Below, piece after piece: positions 13,882-24,654 of a DNA stretch of 64,000 bases. This DNA comes from Aliiglaciecola sp. M165 (GTDB lineage Bacteria > Pseudomonadota > Gammaproteobacteria > Enterobacterales > Alteromonadaceae), in the NCBI RefSeq assembly GCF_007197995.1, contig NZ_VKKH01000001.1, forward strand, positions 124,001-188,000. Reading direction: 5' to 3'. Both the position numbers and the translations under genes were made by a program. Numbering within the stretch: position 1 is the first letter of the stretch; each line of letters starts with the position of its first letter. A model generated the notes under the pieces. That model did no database searches and had not been told where the DNA came from. It saw nothing but the letters and a program-made list of their open reading frames with translations.

Positions 13882-15897
13882 TCAGTCACGGCTTTCAATA
13901 ATAAAGTTATCCATAGTCCGTTGCAGTGTTTTACCGTTAGTATCCATATTGCTGAAAATTCTTTCCAATTCTTTTGCAGTATCTAAACCAATATTGGCTG
14001 CATCTAATACTTCGCCAGTGTCCTGCGCAATCTGGCGAATAGTGATGGCTTGTTGCTCAGACGCTGTGGCAACGGTAGTGGACAACTGCTCTACTCCCGT
14101 GACTTGTGCCACAAGCTCACTGGATAACAATTTTACGTCCGCCGCTCGTTTTAAAGATTGCTCAGCGGTAGAAACGTTACTCTCAATTGAAACCACCACA
14201 TTATTACTGGCATCTTGCAAATCCGTAAGCAGATTGGAAATTCTGTCGGAGCTCTCTTTACTGCCTTTGGCCAGGTTTCTGACTTCATCCGCTACCACAG
14301 CAAAACCACGTCCCGCTTCACCAGCTCTCGCAGCTTCGATTGCAGCATTTAACGCAAGTAAATTTGTCTGTTCAGCAAGTGAATTGATAGTCTCTAAGAT
14401 CCCACTAATAGAAGAGACTTGCTCTTCCATTCGGCTTGCTTTTTCTCTCACCTCGAGCATATTTGTTGATATTTGTTCAAGTGCTTCACTATTAGCCAGG
14501 TTAGCTTCAATATTTACACTCACTTTTTCTTGTAAAGCGCCGCTTGCATCAAACGTCTGTGACGCTGAACGCGCTATCTCTTCACTTGTCTGCGACATTT
14601 CTTCCAAAGAGGTTGCTATGTTATTGGCTAATAAGTGGGTTTTATCAGCGCCTAGCAGGACATTTTGAGTCGCTGTATTTAAATCGTCACTAAGCCTGGC
14701 ACCCGAGCGGATTGATGAGGCTAAGCCAACGATCAAGTCTTTAAACGCGTAAATGGTTTGGTAAATCGCTCTGGAAATATCACCCAATTCATCATCGCCT
14801 TTCATTCTGACATCTAAGGTCAAGTCGCCATTTTCAGCAATTTTTCGCAGCAGCACAGTCAAACGATGCAGGCGGATCCTTAGTGAGCGCACCAAATGAA
14901 TATTTACGATAGCCAACATAGTAATAACGACTACAAGTGCTACGACTTCAAACCAAAGCATCGCTGATGCATTCATCCTATTAGTCTCGGCTTCTTCGTG
15001 TTGAAGTATCCACTGCGAATCCAAAATCTGTTTTATCTGACCAATCTGTCCTGTGGCCAACCCAAACCATTGCTCTGCTGGCATTAAATTTTGGTCAATG
15101 GTGCCCGGCTGACTGTTGATTATCGTCTGATGAACGAGTTGAATTTGCTTAGATTGCCCAGATGACATGGCGCTGCTGAATTTATTGATTTGTGCTTCGT
15201 TCAATAAAATCCGGATGTATTGTGATGCTCCGTTGATACCGTTGACGTAACTCGTTATATCGGCCTTAGCCTGTTGAGTTAGGTTTCTGCGTGCAAGCAG
15301 TCCGTTTATTTTACCTCTTGCCTGTCCTGCATACTCCTTGAACCAAGCTAAAGCAAGCGCACCATTTGTTCCCTTTCTTATGGTTTTGGTATTGATATAA
15401 AGTCGCAAATTTTGAGCCGCTTCAAGGGCATAGCGGTTCAATAAACTGTAGTAGGTAAATGCCCCAGGAGCATTTTGAGCGTTAACTTGCGAGCGAATAT
15501 TCTGTTTGCTTTTAACATGCTCGAGTAGACTACTGGCGTACCGCTGTACATTGATTTCGTCTGGCCATGACCGAGACAAAAAACTTTGCATGTCACGAAT
15601 GGATTGATCGGCTTTTTCTCGTTGAGTTGTTAATTTCGATTTAGCTGATTCGTTTGGAGAGCCGAGAAAACCCGCTGTAAGACCCCTTTCTACGGCGTGG
15701 TTGTGAGCAACTTTTTCAAAGGCATCAAGCAAGAACAGTAGCTGTCTGTCATAGTTGCTATCTTGCACATCTTTCCAAGCAGAATATATACTCAGAACGG
15801 CAAAAAATAACACAGTCGTTGAAAATGTGAATAGGCTGATAAAGGTTATTTGAACAATTGAAAATTTATTAAGCAGGCGATTGATTAGAGAAAGCAC
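13882..15897 (-). CDS. Methyl-accepting chemotaxis protein with NIT sensor domain
   Basis: The protein has 671 residues from a GTG start with AGAGGA 6 bases upstream. Order: transmembrane helix 1 (about 15-38), a periplasmic helical domain of about 270 residues with [19 protein letters not shown], typical of nitrate/nitrite-sensing (NIT) domains, transmembrane helix 2 (about 310-333), HAMP, and the coiled-coil signalling domain. The hairpin tip [19 protein letters not shown] and [12 protein letters not shown] is intact. It should report to CheA/CheW. No che genes apart from the distant cheX are in the window. Ligand identity is inferred from the domain only. Confidence 0.95.
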
Positions 15898-16061
15898 AAC
15901 AAGTCCTCTTTGTTTGGCGTTTACGGTTCCATTTCCATCCTATACCAATATGGTAAAAAAAATAGCCTGCGCATTAAAAAAACTGACAGCTTAGGTAAAA
16001 AAGAAGTAACTTTGTGGTTAACAGCGTTGATTTTCCTTAATTCACAGGAAATTCGATAAAA

Positions 16062-17354
16062 TCAAAGCATCGGCAATACTATCGTGAAGCATGCGCCATT
16101 GAGGATCTTTGATTGATTAACGGTGACATGTCCTTTGTGCCAGTGCACCACCCGACTCACAATGGCAAGGCCTAAGCCATAACTGTTGGATTGCCGATTT
16201 CGACTTCCTTCTGCTGTCACAAACGGGCTAAATATAGAATCCCATTTTTCATGTGGCACCCCAGGTCCGTCATCATGTACTTCTATTGTCAGTTTATTGG
16301 AGTGTTCGTTTAAAACGATCAACACCTTTTCTTGTGCATAATCGATAGCGTTAGACAACAAATTAGTGACTGCTCGCTGTATCCAATGAGGATCAATTTT
16401 TACCAGACTTTTACACAAAACTTTTCTTTCCAGAATGATATTGTTTTGTGCAGCCAGCGGCTCAAGTTCAATCGCACAAGACTCAACTATATCCTTCAAG
16501 TTCACCTCTTCGAGCAACAATGCCTGAGCTTTTCTTTCCATACTGGCGTAGGACAAAAAGGCATCTAGCATAGATTCTAGACGGGTAAGTTCATCCTCCA
16601 CACGTTCCAGATAATGAGACTTTTTGTCAACATCATGGGTATCCATAGCTGCTTCGATGCCAAATCTTAGACAGGAAACTGGCGTGCGAAGATCATGTGA
16701 AAGACTTTCGGCCAAGAGTTTATTGTCAGCGACCAGCGTTTCAATTTGTGCCGCCATACGATTGAAATTTAATTCTAAGTCTTGAATATAAGAAAACTTA
16801 CTCGGGACAATGCGTTTTTCCAGTTTGCCTGCGCCAAAGTCTTCGGCGGCACGGGTTAACAGCGATAACCTTGTGGTCAGAGGCACGAGCCACAATGCTA
16901 AAGAAATACCCACGCCAATATACAGAGCTAACGTCAGTGCAATTTCTAGGTTTTCATTCACTGGGCGTAGTTGAGCAATCTGCATTTGTAATAACATGTC
17001 TGGATGATTGCTCAGCGTTTTAAATAGCAGCGCAGTATCACTGGTTTGTAGGAGTAGTTTTCCACTTTGCCCAAGTTCGGTATTTAACTGTGCAGGAAGT
17101 GCCAAGTTTGCCAATGGCTCGATCGACAATGCCAGATCAAACTGTGAAGCAAGTTGTTCTGTTAAATCATCCAGATCTTGTTCCGGTGTTATATTAAGCT
17201 GCTTGGCGATACCATCTACAATGCGTTCATATATTTGCAGCTCTGAAACAGGCTCATATTGCAGCTCATTTTCAGCAATTAGATCTAGGATCCAACCAAT
17301 CAATATCAGGCTGCCTACAACGGTAAATAGAACGCTGAGATAAATCCTTTTCAT
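16062..17354 (-). CDS. Sensor histidine kinase, RstB/EnvZ-like
   Basis: The protein has 430 residues. Transmembrane helices lie at about 5-25 and 140-160 around a periplasmic domain of roughly 115 residues. HAMP follows, then the phospho-acceptor box SLSHDLRTPVS with His220, and a catalytic ATPase domain with the N box (NLLSNAIDYA), DDGPGVP and GLGLAIV. It lies 33 bases downstream of its response regulator on the same strand, so they form a pair. The upstream DUF3019 and MipA/OmpV genes suggest that it senses an envelope condition, but the signal is unknown. Confidence 0.95.
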   Translation of the reverse strand: MKRIYLSVLFTVVGSLILIGWILDLIAENELQYEPVSELQIYERIVDGIAKQLNITPEQDLDDLTEQLASQFDLALSIEPLANLALPAQLNTELGQSGKLLLQTSDTALLFKTLSNHPDMLLQMQIAQLRPVNENLEIALTLALYIGVGISLALWLVPLTTRLSLLTRAAEDFGAGKLEKRIVPSKFSYIQDLELNFNRMAAQIETLVADNKLLAESLSHDLRTPVSCLRFGIEAAMDTHDVDKKSHYLERVEDELTRLESMLDAFLSYASMERKAQALLLEEVNLKDIVESCAIELEPLAAQNNIILERKVLCKSLVKIDPHWIQRAVTNLLSNAIDYAQEKVLIVLNEHSNKLTIEVHDDGPGVPHEKWDSIFSPFVTAEGSRNRQSNSYGLGLAIVSRVVHWHKGHVTVNQSKILNGACFTIVLPML

Positions 17355-17387
17355 TTTGACCGCGGCTTAAAAAGTGGTTTACCCTGG

Positions 17388-18092
17388 TTATTCATCCCAA
17401 GCGTCCGCAACAAAAAGATATCCTTTACCCCAAATCGTTTTAATTTTTTTAGGCTCTTGCGGATTATCATTGAATTTTTTTCGAAGATTGGACACCAGCA
17501 CATCCATACGCCTGTCCAAACCATCGTATTCTCGACCAATTAGTGCTTTAAATACAGCATCGCGATCTAGCACTGTTCCAGCATTATTGGCCAGTAGCCA
17601 CAACAGTGAGAACAAACTTGTTGATAATTCAACATTGTCGCCCTTAAAACTTACTCGCTTCGAATCAGCGTTTACGTGGAGCTGTCCAAAAACTAACTCG
17701 TTAACGCTACGTACAGGATTGGTTTCCTGCATTCTTAAAATTGCTTTAATTCTTGCTAACAACGCTCTAGGACGCACCGGTTTAATGACATAGTCGTTTG
17801 CACCTACTTCCAAACCAACCACTTCATCAAATTCATCCGCACGGGCAGTCATCATGATTATCGGTACATGGGAAAACTGACGGAGAGCTTTACATACATC
17901 AATTCCATCCATTCCCGGTAACATCACATCCAACAAAATCAGGTTAAACGTGTTCTGTTTTACACAGTCGACGACCTCGTCACCCCGAGCGATGTGGGTG
18001 ACATTAAATCCATGTTCTTGTAGATATTCCGTTACCCATTGTGCCAGTGTGATGTCGTCTTCCACCAACAGGATATTTGCGTACTCAATCAT
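17388..18092 (-). CDS. OmpR-family response regulator
   Basis: The protein has 234 residues. The receiver domain has the acidic pair in VEDD (11-13), the phospho-acceptor Asp55 in LILLDVMLPG, the Thr in MMTA and the Lys in VIKPVRP. The C-terminal winged helix (about 130-228) ends with RRMDVLVSNLRKKF and IKTIWGKGYLF, typical of OmpR/PhoB regulators. It is cotranscribed with the kinase at 16062-17354 and sits behind the MipA and DUF3019 genes. It may bind the inverted repeats upstream of the mipA-like gene (inference). Confidence 0.96.
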   Translation of the reverse strand: MIEYANILLVEDDITLAQWVTEYLQEHGFNVTHIARGDEVVDCVKQNTFNLILLDVMLPGMDGIDVCKALRQFSHVPIIMMTARADEFDEVVGLEVGANDYVIKPVRPRALLARIKAILRMQETNPVRSVNELVFGQLHVNADSKRVSFKGDNVELSTSLFSLLWLLANNAGTVLDRDAVFKALIGREYDGLDRRMDVLVSNLRKKFNDNPQEPKKIKTIWGKGYLFVADAWDE

Positions 18093-18117
18093 AATATTGT
18101 GACTCTCTCACCATAAA

Positions 18118-18552
18118 TTAAAATAGCCGCCAGCGCCGTTTCCTTGCGCTTCCTTCATATAACCAACTTACCTCGATAGTAGCACTTGTAATCACTAAAG
18201 GCTCTTCTGCAGGTGAGCTGCCTAATGGCATAAGAGACAAAGTTACATCTTCCGCTGACGCCATTTCATAGGTAAATTGACCTTGACGTTTTTGCTCCCA
18301 ACAATTTAATTTTAACGATGTATTCGATTCGATCAGACACACAGTGGTTGGGATCTCTGATTGCCAGGTAATGTTCACTTGCGCATAACAACGCCTTCCT
18401 TGAGTTAATGCCACACATTTATTCGGCTGCACGATCATCTCAATATCATTAACAGGCATAGACTCTTTGCCCAATTGCTCTTGCGCGTCTCCAGACTTGA
18501 TGAAGGCAAACAACCCGACAACGACTGCAATCCGTTTGCAGTTAAAATACAT
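18118..18552 (-). CDS. DUF3019 secreted protein
   Basis: The protein has 144 residues from the ATG at 18552. An upstream in-frame GTG at 18561 is possible but has no ribosome site at a usable distance. A signal peptide (MYFNCKRIAVVVGLFAFIKS) precedes a small beta-rich domain with paired cysteines: CVALTQGRRCYAQV, then VCLIES and LNCWEQ. This Cys pattern is typical of DUF3019, a family found beside two-component and MipA/OmpV genes in Shewanella and Alteromonas relatives. The start overlaps the mipA-like stop by 11 bases, so translation is probably coupled. Its function is not known. Confidence 0.85.
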   Translation of the reverse strand: MYFNCKRIAVVVGLFAFIKSGDAQEQLGKESMPVNDIEMIVQPNKCVALTQGRRCYAQVNITWQSEIPTTVCLIESNTSLKLNCWEQKRQGQFTYEMASAEDVTLSLMPLGSSPAEEPLVITSATIEVSWLYEGSARKRRWRLF

Positions 18553-19381
18553 AGCTGACACTCATTTTAAAACGCAATACGTTTTGACGAGCCACCAAGG
18601 GACTGTCATAAATACTATTTGAGTAATGACTAAAGGTTGAGCCTATGGTGAACAACCAATCTTCGGCAATGGGATAATGAGCAACGGCCTCTAATTCAAC
18701 GCGATAGCCCGAACCTGGTTCGTAGAACGGCCGATTTTCTCTTATTTCATGACTATCCACCCCAAAGAAATAATCCGTCATATCCTCTGAAAATAAACTG
18801 GCGCCGATACCATAAGACACGTCCCAGTTTCGATACTCCATCGTACGATTGTAAAACGCGTCGACAACCCAACCGCGATGATAACCGGTAAGCAAATCTA
18901 CAGATACGTCTACCCAAGCGACGGCATTATCTAAATAGCGTAAATATCGAATACCCTGATTTGGAGCAAACTTCCGTGTATCAATACCTGACAATTCTGC
19001 AATTTCTTGGTCACTTATTAGGCCAACGTTGCGCTGATCAAATCCGGCAAGATAATTTTTATTGATAATGTTAATTTCAAAGTCTTTGTCTAAGTGCAGT
19101 TCGTAACCGATTTCTGTCGCACCAATGACACCAGATGATCGATAGCGATTAGATTGAATAAAAAAACCTTTGTAATAAAGGTCGATCCATACACTCAGCG
19201 CCGCAAAGTCATCAAAGTCATCTTGTTCACCGCCAACAATCAATGTCGAATCTTTGACCAAACCTAGTTCAATAGTTAGATTCCAATTAAACTCGTCTGA
19301 AAAATCCTGATCAGTGCTTGCATAAACGGGACAGCAAAGCAAAGCTAGGAAACTGCTAATCAGGAAGTAGGGTTTGAACAT
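18542..19381 (-). CDS. MipA/OmpV-family outer membrane protein
   Basis: The protein has 279 residues if translation starts at the ATG at 19379-19381. That start gives a clean signal peptide (MFKPYFLISSFLALLCCPVYA); the frame is open further upstream but the extra 72 residues look non-coding. The mature protein is a series of amphipathic strands and ends in FKMSVSYVF, with the C-terminal Phe expected of an outer membrane barrel. MipA/OmpV proteins are small barrels, some linked to murein synthesis complexes or osmotic and antimicrobial responses. It heads the mipA-DUF3019-regulator-kinase operon. Confidence 0.86.
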   Translation of the reverse strand: MFKPYFLISSFLALLCCPVYASTDQDFSDEFNWNLTIELGLVKDSTLIVGGEQDDFDDFAALSVWIDLYYKGFFIQSNRYRSSGVIGATEIGYELHLDKDFEINIINKNYLAGFDQRNVGLISDQEIAELSGIDTRKFAPNQGIRYLRYLDNAVAWVDVSVDLLTGYHRGWVVDAFYNRTMEYRNWDVSYGIGASLFSEDMTDYFFGVDSHEIRENRPFYEPGSGYRVELEAVAHYPIAEDWLFTIGSTFSHYSNSIYDSPLVARQNVLRFKMSVSYVF

Positions 19382-19530
19382 GAAAGGCCACTGTAAATTA
19401 TTGTTATCACGATGAATAATAACAAATCCACTTGATTGAGGGCAGAATCTATCCCGCTTAAAGTGTTTATAAATTGTAATTTTTTGTACAGTTTGGCAAA
19501 AGCTTGCACAAAGATGCCTGTTACAACACG

Positions 19531-19579
19531 AGCTGTTTACATACAGCTTGGCATATACCGATGTATTAAAAACGGTATA
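19531..19579. promoter_or_regulatory. Two inverted repeats in the mipA / coiled-coil divergent promoter region
   Basis: A perfect inverted repeat AGCTGT (19531-19536) / ACAGCT (19543-19548) has a 6-base centre. A second, TATACCG (19554-19560) / CGGTATA (19573-19579), has a 12-base centre. Both sit in the 278-base gap between the divergent genes at 19381 and 19660, about 150-200 bases from the mipA start. They are candidate operators, possibly for the OmpR-type regulator of the same locus. The CTGT-N6-ACAG core does not have LexA spacing. Confidence 0.35.
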
Positions 19580-19659
19580 AAATTCAAATATATCCACTGC
19601 CTATGTGACAATTTTTAGGCTATGCTTGTCGAATAATGCATCAATATTAGGAAGGCAGC

Positions 19660-20208
19660 ATGGCAGCGAAAAAGAATCAATCGACTTCAAGTGAGCAGAC
19701 CCCCCCAGAAAATAACGATGTTCATTCAGAGTTAGACACTCTGCGGCACATTGTGTTTGGTGTTGCTAAAGCACAAATTGAAGCGGATCTTGCAGATCTA
19801 AGAAGCCAGATGGGAATCCAATTTGAGCAGCTTCAACATTCTATGGAGAGCAAATTTGAACAAATGCATAAAGACATGCAGCAAGGATTTGATGCGCTCA
19901 ACGCACGACTAGAGGACGTCAACAAACATCACGAAAATCGCTCGGATGAGATACAGTCTTACGCTGATAAGTTGTCTTCTGAACTTGAAATGTCCGACAC
20001 CAATAGTCGACAAGATGCTGATGAGTTGCATTCTCGAGTTGACAAAGAAGTGAGTAAACTAACTGAGAAATATGATGCTCGCTTTGCAGAAGCACTAGAA
20101 AGGCTGGATCAAGTTACCAAAGAGCTTAGCTCTTCAAAAACAGACCGCAAAACCTTGGCCAAACTACTTTCGACTATGGCTGTGAACCTTGAGACAGACG
20201 AAGATTAA
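19660..20208 (+). CDS. Cytoplasmic coiled-coil protein of small-GTPase operon
   Basis: The protein has 182 residues, very hydrophilic, with no signal peptide or membrane segment. After a disordered N-terminus, residues 26-45 (LDTLRHIVFGVAKAQIEADL) resemble residues 18-37 of the next gene product (LEKLREILLGNEKQQIKQVL). The central part (about 45-165) is strongly helical with heptad spacing (FEQLQHSMESKFEQMHKDM), a predicted coiled coil. AGGAAGG lies before the ATG. The 6-base gap to the next gene implies one operon with the OmpA-like, GTPase and EAL genes. I do not recognise a named family. A scaffold or adaptor for the GTPase system is an inference. Confidence 0.85.
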   Translation: MAAKKNQSTSSEQTPPENNDVHSELDTLRHIVFGVAKAQIEADLADLRSQMGIQFEQLQHSMESKFEQMHKDMQQGFDALNARLEDVNKHHENRSDEIQSYADKLSSELEMSDTNSRQDADELHSRVDKEVSKLTEKYDARFAEALERLDQVTKELSSSKTDRKTLAKLLSTMAVNLETDED

Positions 20209-20214
20209 CCTTGC

Positions 20215-21981
20215 ATGACAAAGGATGTTAAAAGCACTACGCGGGAATCTGATCAGGCTGATTTAGAAAAGCTTAGAGAGATCTTGCTAGGCAATGAAAA
20301 ACAACAGATCAAGCAGGTCTTACAAGACAATGCACGACAGGTCGTCGGTGATGTGGTGATCGAAGCGCTGCATGACCGACAAAGGCAGGATGGCGGATTG
20401 AACAGTGTGTTGGTGCCCATTGTCGAAAAATCCGTGGAAAAATCGGTTAACGATCACAGTGATCAATTTGTTGGCTATTTATATCCACTGGTAGGCCGGT
20501 TGGTGCGAAAATCGGTTACCGCATTTTTAGCGGAATTTCTCGAAAAAACCAATGAGCTAATTGAAAATAGTTTGACCTTTAAAGGTATAGCTTGGAGGTT
20601 TAAGGCTTGGCAGGCTGGAGTCAGTTTTTCTCAGTATGTAGCAAGTAGAACCTTTGTATTCCGGGTTGAACAAGTCTTGTTGATTCATGCTGATACCGGC
20701 ATCTTGCTGAATTCAGTGTCGCGTAATGAAAGTGATTCAAAAAACGCCGACTTAGTATCTAGTATGCTAACGGCCATCAATGACTTTGTTGCAGATTCTT
20801 TTAATGTTCAAAATGACAACAGTGAGCAAAATCTCGAAGTTGTAAAAACCGAAGATTTTTCGTTGGTAATAAAGCGCGGCCCTCAATTAGTTTTGGTGGC
20901 AGCAGTCACTGGCAATATTCCACAGGATATCTCCACCCAATTTCAGGTTTCACTCGAATATATTCACAAACTTTTTGCCAAGGAAATCGCAGAATTTTGT
21001 GGTGACACCATTCCCTTTGAAAGTACTGAACAACAACTTCAGGAATGTTTAGTTGCAGAGCTTCACCCAGACGCCGAGAAGAAAAAGAAGACGCCGTTTT
21101 TAGCCATCTTTGTTGTTCTACTTGTGCTTTGCGGTGTTGGCTATTTTGCCTGGTTAAGTTACGAGCAGAATAGTCTTTTTGATAAGGTGAGTGAGCTAAA
21201 TAACGAACCAGGGATCGTGATAAATGAAATAGAGACACTGGGGATAAGCGAGATTTCGGTGCAACTATTGAGAGATCCTTTAGCGATCAATGTTGAACAG
21301 TGGATAACTGAAAATGGGCTTAATCCAGCACTCGTACATATTGAGGAAACTCAGTTTTTGTCACTTGAAGCCGATATAGTGAAGTCGCGGTTACAAAAAA
21401 TCGCAGACCGTTATTCAGGTGTATCGTTACAATGGATGGATGAAACCCCGCAATTGTCTGGCACCTTGCCTAATAATCTGCGTCAGCAATTATACCGAGA
21501 CGTACAGGCTATTCCTGGTATTGATAATGTCGACAATTTGACTCGCAATGTCACGTCAAAAGAAATTGAATTGGCGGATGAAAAAAGCCCAGAGATACTC
21601 GAGGCGTTATTTGAAATTAATGCCGCGAGGATAGACAGTACTCAAATTGAGTTTGCTCAAGGACAAAGTGCTTTAAGCGATGATGCCAAAATTCAACTCG
21701 ATCAACTGGCAAATACATTAAAAAATAGTATCGAGTTGTCTAAAAGTTTGGAGTTGAACGTTGGATTGATTATTATGGGGGCAAGTGACTCCAGCGGCTC
21801 ACCGCAATTCAATCAATCGTTAAGCCGTAAACGTGCTCAAATGGCACAACAATATTTGATAGAGCGAGGCATTGAACCCGGTTATTTGAACGCCGTTGGT
21901 CTAGGCGTAGTAGAGCTAAAAACCACCGGCGAAGGAGCTAGAAAAGTAATATTTAACTTAATCGATTTTGAAGCGAAGTAA
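20215..21981 (+). CDS. Inner-membrane protein with cytoplasmic regulatory domain and periplasmic OmpA domain
   Basis: The protein has 588 residues. There is no signal peptide: residues 1-292 are hydrophilic and presumably cytoplasmic, followed by one transmembrane helix (about 293-315, TPFLAIFVVLLVLCGVGYFAW) and a periplasmic part. The cytoplasmic part has the shared LRxI..G..K.QI motif, a helical region, and a segment at about 150-260 (VEQVLLIHADTGILLNSVS...LVIKRGPQLVLVAAV) whose strand pattern resembles roadblock/longin folds. The periplasmic part has a BON-like region and a C-terminal OmpA peptidoglycan-binding domain (IEFAQGQSALSDDA, ASDSSGS, NQSLSRKRAQMAQ). It could link a cytoplasmic GTPase to the cell wall. 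The roadblock/longin reading is from pattern only. Confidence 0.85.
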   Translation: MTKDVKSTTRESDQADLEKLREILLGNEKQQIKQVLQDNARQVVGDVVIEALHDRQRQDGGLNSVLVPIVEKSVEKSVNDHSDQFVGYLYPLVGRLVRKSVTAFLAEFLEKTNELIENSLTFKGIAWRFKAWQAGVSFSQYVASRTFVFRVEQVLLIHADTGILLNSVSRNESDSKNADLVSSMLTAINDFVADSFNVQNDNSEQNLEVVKTEDFSLVIKRGPQLVLVAAVTGNIPQDISTQFQVSLEYIHKLFAKEIAEFCGDTIPFESTEQQLQECLVAELHPDAEKKKKTPFLAIFVVLLVLCGVGYFAWLSYEQNSLFDKVSELNNEPGIVINEIETLGISEISVQLLRDPLAINVEQWITENGLNPALVHIEETQFLSLEADIVKSRLQKIADRYSGVSLQWMDETPQLSGTLPNNLRQQLYRDVQAIPGIDNVDNLTRNVTSKEIELADEKSPEILEALFEINAARIDSTQIEFAQGQSALSDDAKIQLDQLANTLKNSIELSKSLELNVGLIIMGASDSSGSPQFNQSLSRKRAQMAQQYLIERGIEPGYLNAVGLGVVELKTTGEGARKVIFNLIDFEAK

Positions 21982-22026
21982 TTAAGGTCAATTACAACAA
22001 CCGAACATTAAGGAAAGAACACTGGC

Positions 22027-22518
22027 ATGATCCAAAAAAAGATATGCTTGTTGGGTGCCTCAGGGGTAGGCAAAACAAGTTTGGTGAAACAATATGTTGA
22101 GGGTATTTTCTCGGAAAAATACCTCACAACTATTGGTGTCAAAATCGATAAAAAGCAAGTCGACCTCGGCGTTGAGCAAGTTCAGTTAATGTTATGGGAC
22201 ATCGAGGGTATTGACCGCTATTGCGGCTTCCAGCCTAAATATCTACGTGGCGCTTCCGCGTACATCATCGTTACAGACCAAACCCGTTCACAAAGTCTCG
22301 TCGAGGGCATGGAAATTCATCGCATGGCCAGAGAGGTATCCGATGTGCCCTCGTTACTAGTGATCAACAAGTGCGACTTAGAAGTTGCTTGGCATTGGAC
22401 AGAAGGAGAGCTTAATGGTTATAGCAAAGAATTTGTTGGATGCTTTACAACTAGTGCAAAAACTGGCGAGCAAGTGGACGACTTGTTCAAATGTCTTGCT
22501 CAGATTTCACTGAAGTAA
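22027..22518 (+). CDS. Rab/Ras-like bacterial small GTPase
   Basis: The protein has 163 residues, a single G domain. The P-loop is GASGVGKT (10-17), switch I Thr lies in YLTTIGVKI (34/35), the G3 motif is WDIEG (57-61), G4 is NKCD (114-117) and G5 is SAK (143-145). This order and length are those of Ras-superfamily GTPases rather than TRAFAC translation factors. Ile62 stands where Ras and Rab have the catalytic Gln, so intrinsic hydrolysis is probably slow and a partner may be needed. There is no C-terminal lipidation motif. It sits between the OmpA-domain membrane protein (45-base gap) and the EAL protein (6-base gap). Confidence 0.92.
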   Translation: MIQKKICLLGASGVGKTSLVKQYVEGIFSEKYLTTIGVKIDKKQVDLGVEQVQLMLWDIEGIDRYCGFQPKYLRGASAYIIVTDQTRSQSLVEGMEIHRMAREVSDVPSLLVINKCDLEVAWHWTEGELNGYSKEFVGCFTTSAKTGEQVDDLFKCLAQISLK

Positions 22519-22524
22519 CCCACT

Positions 22525-24654
22525 ATGCAACAGTCTCTCATTCAAGCACTTGGGATCATTAACTGCACAATCCTAAAGCGGCTCAAAGACAAAAACTTTG
22601 AAATCGTACACTGCAGTGATGATTGGTTTTATTCACTCGCCCCAGAAGCGGTTGGCAAAAAACAATTTGAATTCGGTGATAGCTCCGTTTATTTGACCGA
22701 TTTCTTTTTAGATGCAGAAGATTTTTGGCAAATTGGTAATGATGGTCAAATACAATCAGGCGTTTGGACAGAGCAATCTCAAGACAAATTACTTCGACTA
22801 GAGGCCATTGCTGCCGTGTCAAAAGGCGAATGCTATCTGGTCATCAACAATCTCGAAGTAGAATATGCCAAACAACAAAAAACACTTCAAGTCGCCAGAG
22901 AACTGTTAATTTCCAACGACAAAATCCTTGCTCAGCATGAATATATCCATGAGAGACTTGATGAAGTCTTAAAACAAAATCTTGATCTAATCTCTCTTCA
23001 GGAACCACTTAAAAAAATTGTTGAGAGCGCTAATTTTGGCATCTTAATATGTGATGCACAACTACAGCCAGAAAGCCAAAATCCAAACGCTTACTCTTTG
23101 TTTGAGATAAACCCCAAGAGCACAGAAAGCAGTCCGGTTGGGGTTGTGTTAGATCTGATGCAAAAGCAGGTCGCGGAATTTGAAAGAGTATTGCAAACCG
23201 GCAGTCGTTGGCACGGCGAGCTGTTTTGGCACAAACCCCCTTTCACAAGCAAATGGTTACAGCTAGCGCTTTACCCTGTCAAAGATGAGAATGGGAACAC
23301 TCAACATTGGGTGTTTATCTTCAGCGACATTTCGAAAATTAAGTATCTTTTGCAGCGCAACGAAAAACTCAGTCTTTATGACAATGTTACTGACTTGCCT
23401 AATCGTCAATTTTTCTGGCAAGAACTTGAGAATAGCATTGAAACGGATGCACCTTTTTTTGTTCTTTATATTGACGTTAAACACTTCAAACGAATTAATG
23501 AATTGTATGGTCACCTTGCCGGCGATCATTTGCTGGTTAATTTGGCAGAAAGGCTGCTACCGTTATTAAACAAAGAAGATATTTGTGCCCGTATTGGCGG
23601 TAACGAATTTGGCATTCTGTTAAGAAATCAAAAATCTCAACAGCACTGCATTGATTTTGCTCGGCGGATGATTGAAGCCGTTGAAAAGCCTTTTTACAAC
23701 GATTTAAAACAAAAAATTCAAATAGGTATTAATATCGGCGCAGCTCATTATCCTGCTGATGCGTCAGACTCCGAAGAATTAATGAAGTTTGCCGATTTAG
23801 CCATGTTTGCCGCCAAAACATCGTCGAAGAGTACATTGAAATTTTACTCTAAAGAGCTTAAGGACGCTTCACAAAAGCGTTTGGAATTGGAAGCTTCATT
23901 ACGTTATGCCATTGAAAAGGAGCAATTTGAGCTATTTTTACAGCCCATGCTGGACCTTAACACAGGTGAGATTGTTAAAGCTGAAGCATTGATCCGCTGG
24001 CGCCTAGATAATGATGTGTTGGTAAGCCCAGACGAGTTTATTCCTCTTGCTGAACAAACCGGTTTGATCGTTCCCATTGGGAAATGGGTGCTGTCCAAAG
24101 CTGGGAAGATGCTCAAGTTACTATTGCAACACAAATCCAATTTAAAAATTTCAGTCAACCTATCGCCACGACAAATCGCTGATCGCCATTTATTTGAGTT
24201 TATTCAGTCGGTGATTGAACACTGCGGTATTCCAGCAAAAAACCTTGAGTTGGAGTTAACTGAGGGCGTATTAATTGATAACTTTGAAAAGGTCCAGATG
24301 TTGTTGCAAGAATTTCGAAAATTGGGAATAACCATTTCGATCGACGACTTTGGTACAGGTTACAGTTCACTCGCCTATTTACAAAAATTGCCTATCGATC
24401 ACCTGAAAATTGACCGATCGTTTGTGCATGAGCTTGATGTTAATGAAAGCAATAAAGCGATTGTATTGGCTGTTATCGCAATGGCCCATAGTCTCAAACT
24501 CGGGGTCATTGCAGAAGGCGTCGAGACCAGCGAACAACATCAATTTTTGGTCTCTAATCACTGTGATACGGCACAGGGTTTTTTATTTAGCAAACCCGTG
24601 CCCTTTGATGATTTTTGTCAGCAGTTAATTAAAGAGACTAAAGCCAAAAACTAG
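22525..24654 (+). CDS. PAS-GGDEF(degenerate)-EAL c-di-GMP protein
   Basis: The protein has 709 residues and no membrane segment. Order: an N-terminal domain of about 115 residues of unrecognised type, a coiled coil (about 116-150), PAS (about 160-272), GGDEF domain (about 280-440) and EAL domain (about 455-700). The GGDEF signature reads GGNEF (358-362), with Asn at the catalytic acidic position, so cyclase activity is doubtful. The EAL domain keeps EAL (487-489), NLSPRQ, ELTEG, DDFGTGYSSL, KIDRSFV and AEGVET, so it is likely an active c-di-GMP phosphodiesterase. It is the last gene of the GTPase operon and converges on the E1 gene with a 2-base gap. Confidence 0.93.
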   Translation: MQQSLIQALGIINCTILKRLKDKNFEIVHCSDDWFYSLAPEAVGKKQFEFGDSSVYLTDFFLDAEDFWQIGNDGQIQSGVWTEQSQDKLLRLEAIAAVSKGECYLVINNLEVEYAKQQKTLQVARELLISNDKILAQHEYIHERLDEVLKQNLDLISLQEPLKKIVESANFGILICDAQLQPESQNPNAYSLFEINPKSTESSPVGVVLDLMQKQVAEFERVLQTGSRWHGELFWHKPPFTSKWLQLALYPVKDENGNTQHWVFIFSDISKIKYLLQRNEKLSLYDNVTDLPNRQFFWQELENSIETDAPFFVLYIDVKHFKRINELYGHLAGDHLLVNLAERLLPLLNKEDICARIGGNEFGILLRNQKSQQHCIDFARRMIEAVEKPFYNDLKQKIQIGINIGAAHYPADASDSEELMKFADLAMFAAKTSSKSTLKFYSKELKDASQKRLELEASLRYAIEKEQFELFLQPMLDLNTGEIVKAEALIRWRLDNDVLVSPDEFIPLAEQTGLIVPIGKWVLSKAGKMLKLLLQHKSNLKISVNLSPRQIADRHLFEFIQSVIEHCGIPAKNLELELTEGVLIDNFEKVQMLLQEFRKLGITISIDDFGTGYSSLAYLQKLPIDHLKIDRSFVHELDVNESNKAIVLAVIAMAHSLKLGVIAEGVETSEQHQFLVSNHCDTAQGFLFSKPVPFDDFCQQLIKETKAKN

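Follow-up and report, generated by a model that had tools for sequence, protein, structure and literature searches.

Group 1 Rup GTPases, described by Wuichet and Sogaard-Andersen in 2014 (PMC4316618), are GTPases whose G3 motif lacks a Gln. In the sections of that paper used here, their genes are accompanied by those of a coiled-coil protein, of a protein which combines an unknown domain with, often, a membrane helix and an OmpA domain, and of an output protein. The output protein carries an invariant N-terminal Gln and is typically a fusion of cyclase and phosphodiesterase for cyclic diguanosine monophosphate (c-di-GMP) or a histidine kinase. Supply of a Gln in trans to the GTPase was already proposed there. 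The only Rup experiment reported in those sections concerns transcription of one Nostoc gene, and no later experimental work on Rup systems was found in the open-access literature searched. The present analysis concerns a four-gene operon of Aliiglaciecola sp. M165 which, judged by its sequence, is a member of this group. It lies in a stretch of 64,000 nucleotides (assembly GCF_007197995.1, contig NZ_VKKH01000001.1, positions 124,001 to 188,000 of the forward strand), referred to below as the window, and all coordinates are positions in this window.

The operon spans 19660..24654 and consists of four + strand open reading frames (ORFs) with intergenic gaps of 6, 45 and 6 bases. Gene 1 (19660..20208, +) encodes a 182-residue cytoplasmic coiled-coil protein and gene 2 (20215..21981, +) a 588-residue inner-membrane protein with a predicted cytoplasmic longin-type domain, one transmembrane helix and a periplasmic OmpA domain. 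Gene 3 (22027..22518, +) encodes a 163-residue Rab/Ras-like GTPase, and gene 4 (22525..24654, +) a 709-residue output protein with a PAS-like domain, a helix, a PAS domain, GGNEF and EAL. An earlier note, made from the sequence alone, had proposed four genes with these gaps and domains, and the ORFs and Pfam matches bear this out. It also took the gene set to be a distinct one, a claim which was rejected because PMC4316618, in its account of Group 1, describes the set component by component. The window operon has all four components, a G3 motif without Gln and an output protein with an N-terminal Gln. It can be told from that account in that no fold is named in those sections for the unknown domain or for the N-terminal region, while HD-GYP, class III cyclase and SpoIIE outputs and an N-terminal motif shared by genes 1 and 2 are added here. 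The layout has therefore been known since 2014; what is new is the prediction of a longin fold in gene 2 and the wide range of outputs, neither of which was found in the open-access literature searched. With moderate confidence, we propose that a longin platform anchored to peptidoglycan controls the Rab-like GTPase, which in turn drives an output that can be exchanged between lineages; in the window operon this output is probably the breakdown of c-di-GMP.

The membrane protein and its neighbouring GTPase

The predicted longin-type domain of gene 2 covers residues 147-283 (20653..21063, +). Its AlphaFold2 (AF2) model, with secondary structure assigned by DSSP, has the topology b-b-a-b-b-b-a-a (b, strand; a, helix), which is the element order of longin domains. 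Structural matches of the model were proteins of the longin and roadblock types, including many regulators of GTPases, and the longin proteins matched strongly across the whole domain. The 50 listed matches were sorted by their titles. The 28 longin-type matches ended at model residues 276-286, and for 25 the end lay in the last helix (281-286), whereas the 22 roadblock-type matches ended at residues 252-260, short of that helix. The latter began at chain residues 16-27, and the first roadblock helix lies before these residues, so that it is left unaligned to the model. Because the roadblock matches stop before the last helix and their first helix is unaligned, the model is better fitted by a longin fold, and a roadblock fold, the nearest alternative, is less likely. 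No PAS entry was present among the 50 listed matches, which does not exclude a PAS fold.

Sequence comparisons found no similarity of the gene 2 domain to known longin or roadblock families (the roadblock comparison used 26 of the 30 fetched loci). A search with the PF13774 profile gave no match in any control genome and is thus uninformative for the genome of the window. No paper naming a longin domain in a Group 1 Rup-type system was found in the open-access literature searched; a table in PMC4917890, in the part of it used here, lists Longin/Roadblock as occurring in Bacteria and gives no particulars.

As for the rest of gene 2, its hydropathy is maximal (Kyte-Doolittle, 2.58) in the 19-residue stretch starting at residue 296, and a transmembrane helix is placed at about residues 294-314 (21094..21156, +). 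Since Lys and Arg are in excess before this stretch (4 in residues 277-292, 1 in residues 313-328), the sequence is consistent with an N-in topology. The OmpA-type domain (residues 480-573, 21652..21933, +) matches PF00691 (2.1e-10) and has both D525 and R540, which agrees with the earlier description of an inner-membrane protein with such a domain, and it would bind peptidoglycan. The gene 2 alignment holds 86 of 92 matches, including the window, and omits L034, two L070 pieces and three duplicates. The L034 relative (L034:4085-7009) is 974 residues long, with an apparently duplicated N-terminal helical part and seemingly extra periplasmic repeats. Gene 2 is broken into two overlapping frames in L070, a metagenome-assembled genome (MAG) of Paraglaciecola, and in G145:C3:95462-96272 from the same family as the window, by decay or assembly error.

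The gene 3 product matches Pfam Ras (PF00071, 1.6e-28) over residues 5-159, with no C-terminal extension past the Ras domain. Among PDB sequences it is matched best by Rab35 (1.3e-22) and Rab23 (7.9e-22), in support of its reading as a Rab/Ras-like GTPase. Three further PF00071 matches in the genome scored 21 to 30 bits, against 99 for the operon GTPase. The motifs of the G1-G5 test, GxxxxGKT, WDxxG, NKxD and SAK, are present in the alignment. In the G3 motif WDIEGID (22195..22215, +), Ile replaces the catalytic Gln, and Gln is absent from G3 in 85 of 86 readable GTPases, a count which holds twice three pairs with identical profile scores (L028/L088, L031/L100 and L033/L094). Among the reading frames examined, there was no natural fusion of the GTPase to either gene 2 or gene 4.

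MglA/MglB, named in the earlier note as conceptual relatives, and the actinobacterial conservons share with the window operon a small GTPase encoded with a protein whose fold belongs to the longin/roadblock class, and the conservons also contain a kinase. The window operon differs from both by a Rab-like GTPase, an OmpA anchor, exchangeable PAS-headed outputs and the lack of any roadblock protein found: PF03259 gave no match in its genome, while the family was detected in 3 of 14 control genomes. The presence together of a small GTPase, an envelope anchor and a c-di-GMP enzyme would suit a polarity switch of the MglA/MglB kind. The missing roadblock protein nevertheless makes this very unlikely, as does the WD of the G3 motif, since the Asp is, according to the sections of PMC4316618 used here, conserved in GTPases other than MglA. 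With a longin-type domain modelled in gene 2, MglA/MglB is not the nearest comparison. The eukaryotic longin exchange factors of Rabs (Fuzzy-Inturned, TRAPP, Mon1-Ccz1) differ in turn, since the bacterial protein has a single predicted longin domain on an OmpA-anchored membrane protein and no sequence similarity to them was found in its domain.

Conservation of the operon and the motif common to genes 1 and 2

A scan of named genomes with the cytoplasmic part of gene 2 gave at least 483 relatives, and the counts of named loci rest on the best 80 of these. The full four-gene order was found in 71 of the 80, among them loci from Pseudomonadota, Acidobacteriota, Cyanobacteriota, Gemmatimonadota and Thermodesulfobacteriota. 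Its recurrence is far beyond chance. The order is thus kept well outside the circle of close relatives, and the first of the refuting conditions set by the earlier note, a lack of such conservation, is excluded. The nearest named relative, Aliiglaciecola lipolytica, is 73% identical in the cytoplasmic part of gene 2. A coiled-coil match lies directly upstream of gene 2 in 78/80 loci, a partly circular figure because the profile was seeded with genes chosen by position at 15 loci. The GTPase gene follows gene 2 directly in 74/80, with four of the six exceptions ending within gene 2 at a contig edge (L080, L085, L105 and L114), and an output gene follows the GTPase in 73/80. Other exceptions to the order are L071, where the contig starts about 180 bases ahead of gene 2, L113 (no output found), L104 (no coiled coil found), L076 (rearranged) and L120 (no adjacent GTPase).

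In a class-level sample, the GTPase was matched in 17 of 143 genomes (E <= 1e-6). Fifteen neighbourhoods (L028-L042) were fetched from 23 GTPase matches of this sample, and nine of the ten closest besides the window (L028-L037) carry all four genes in the order of the window operon. L038, L040, L041 and L042, distant Ras-like matches with no gene 2 match, were dropped from later counts. The sample overlaps with the named set at the three pairs listed above, and the 71/80 figure uses named loci only. The distribution of the system is patchy: it was found in 32 of 118 genomes of the window's own family (E <= 1e-5) and in 46 of 299 genomes of a phylum sample (E <= 1e-10). Roadblock proteins, for comparison, were found in 43 genomes of that phylum sample (E <= 1e-6).

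The order of genes 2 and 3 bears on the role of the longin-type domain. As the structural match lists show, longin folds occur also in SNAREs and clathrin-adaptor sigma subunits, and the domain could serve for dimerisation or as a scaffold only. The GTPase would then load itself by intrinsic exchange and act on gene 4 alone, with gene 2 merely positioning the complex at the envelope. This would fit genome G259, in which the GTPase and a type B kinase lie on one contig and genes 1 and 2 with a type A output on another, as well as L029, where the GTPase adjoins an HD-GYP output without gene 2. It is set against the direct succession of gene 2 and GTPase in the 74 loci and the retention of genes 1-3 somewhere in both exception genomes, and we hold it to be fairly unlikely. 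A longin domain that controls the GTPase is preferred.

Some loci depart from the usual arrangement. At L029 there is no adjacent coiled coil either, and the same genome has a complete copy, L032, with a type B kinase. One gammaproteobacterial MAG has a split system (L120/L130), with coiled coil, gene 2 and GGDEF-EAL output on one contig and GTPase, type B kinase and response regulator on another. L120 had been considered as a system having lost its GTPase; this was ruled out by the GTPase found with the type B kinase on the other contig, and the locus speaks only weakly for the Gln discussed below.

Gene 1 gave weak Pfam matches to 42 families, and the 25 listed were all below curated cut-offs, as is usual for coiled coils. 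Near its C-terminus, the motif EL..KxDRxxLAxLL..MAxxL (residues 155-177, 20122..20190, +) is well kept, the columns L, K, D, R, L, A and A being 89-96% identical over 82 relatives. At its N-terminus, the motif LxxLRxIxFG (residues 25-34, 19732..19761, +) shares the pattern LxxLRx(I/L)x(F/L)G with the N-terminal motif LxxLRxILLG of gene 2 (residues 17-26, 20263..20292, +). The strict pattern was present in 77 of 82 coiled-coil frames searched at full length and in 48 of the 92 frames of gene 2, against a background of 2 among 1284 other frames, each 150 residues or longer and searched over its first 150 residues. The shared motif suggests that the two proteins may bind a common partner or assemble together.

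Output proteins and the conserved glutamine

Gene 4 matches PAS_4 (1.5e-7), GGDEF (3.8e-38) and EAL (8.5e-73) in Pfam. The GGDEF domain (23374..23829, +; Pfam and motif scan) has the motif GGNEF, and the signature patterns of the EAL domain (23893..24597, +; Pfam and pattern scan) are all present. Of 36 outputs scanned, including the window, 14 have GGDEF, 7 GGTEF, 3 GGNEF, 2 GGGEF and 1 GGAEF, the others having no clear motif, and 18/36 EAL outputs are without at least one EAL pattern, the patterns being rough ones written for the scan. Because of GGNEF and the intact EAL patterns, c-di-GMP breakdown is the likelier activity of gene 4, so that the 'turnover' of the earlier note narrows to what looks like a phosphodiesterase.

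A PAS-like start, of type A or type B, is common to output proteins with unlike enzyme domains. The 80-row tree set contains 34 GGDEF-EAL outputs (including the window), 16 HD-GYP, 13 histidine kinases, 7 class III nucleotide cyclases, 1 kinase plus cyclase, 3 SpoIIE phosphatases and 6 without recognised catalytic domain, among the last L113, in which no PAS-like output gene was found. The tree of GTPase and gene 2, made by a quick method, omits L029, L039, L070, L088, L094, L100, L106 and five loci without a GTPase match. Placing the seven output labels on it takes at least 11 changes, the minimum being 6, with 7 for histidine kinases and 4 for HD-GYP; a branch with SH-aLRT 98 sets the GGDEF-EAL outputs apart from all others. 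These sequence relationships show that the output has been swapped between lineages under conserved upstream genes. A c-di-GMP output, as claimed in the earlier note, therefore stands for the window's lineage but not as the general output. PMC12143880 reports, in the part used here, that a phosphatase is switched on by a protein that binds it, which serves only as a precedent for outputs driven by a partner. Four type B kinase versions (L032, L035, L037 and L130) have a response-regulator-like gene near the operon or GTPase, the first three judged by sequence start. On the same tree L111, a contig whose MAG bears the name Klebsiella pneumoniae, clusters with the Acidobacteriota loci and probably comes from a misnamed bin.

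In the window, residues 1-143 (22525..22953, +) form a predicted type A PAS-like domain with a C-terminal helix (AF2 pLDDT 82.5; moderate structural matches to PAS/LOV). Within the helix, Gln122 (codon 22888..22890, +) is kept in 59 of 61 type A rows and Arg125 (codon 22897..22899, +) in 60 of 61. This alignment holds 61 of 67 matches, including the window, and omits L091, the short L064 and L097, and the duplicates L088, L094 and L100. In type B (30 of 33 matches aligned), the equivalent Gln is present in 29/30 rows and the Arg is not kept. We take Gln122 to be the invariant Gln of the published Group 1 Rup logo.

The helix Gln, with Arg in type A, may stand in for the Gln missing from the GTPase, although our confidence in this step alone is lower than in the overall picture. 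Both residues could instead be non-catalytic interface or packing residues, the GTPase being a slow, mostly GTP-bound timer. They sit within a long helix after the PAS-like core, where linker residues pack, the Arg is not kept in type B, and L091 carries both Gln residues. Such a role has only slightly less than an even chance; it is compatible with the longin platform and contests the hydrolysis step alone. It is countered by the near-complete conservation of Gln and Arg over unlike enzymes together with the loss of the GTPase's own Gln, and by the earlier proposal of Gln supply in trans in PMC4316618, in the sections used here.

The minus strand upstream of the operon (13882-19597) encodes a NIT-HAMP chemoreceptor, a histidine kinase, a response regulator, a DUF3019 protein and a MipA-like protein, the gene of the last being the one divergent from the operon.

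Proposed mechanism and its significance

In the mechanism that we propose, gene 2 would be tethered to peptidoglycan by its OmpA domain and show its longin domain inside the cell, with envelope state as a possible input. The longin domain would bind the Rab-like GTPase and set its nucleotide state, most likely as an exchange factor or membrane platform; this role is modelled on the longin pairs that act for Rabs, TRAPP, Mon1-Ccz1 and Fuzzy-Inturned. The loaded GTPase would engage the N-terminal region of gene 4, with its PAS-like domain and helix, and the helix would relay the signal to the exchangeable enzyme, in the window c-di-GMP hydrolysis by EAL. If the helix Gln completes the active site of the GTPase, the effector would also end the signal. 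Gene 1 may act as a cytoplasmic coiled-coil partner whose docking motif is the one in common with gene 2.

If the longin fold predicted for gene 2 is confirmed by experiment, it will be new for the Group 1 Rup system. In a further-reaching reading, which we regard as distinctly improbable, a partnership of Rab GTPase and longin regulator, thought of as eukaryotic and Asgard, would exist across several bacterial phyla as a pair encoded in one operon. Eukaryotic Rabs and their longin exchange factors would then descend from this pair or share its ancestor, and longins would not come solely from archaeal roadblock domains. If the conserved gene 2 protein does have a longin domain, as several eukaryotic exchange factors for Rabs do, the question of where the Rab-longin pair arose could be put to the test in bacteria that are open to culture and engineering. 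The operon would also offer a concrete, assayable model for a widespread and uncharacterised form of envelope-to-cytoplasm signalling with exchangeable outputs.
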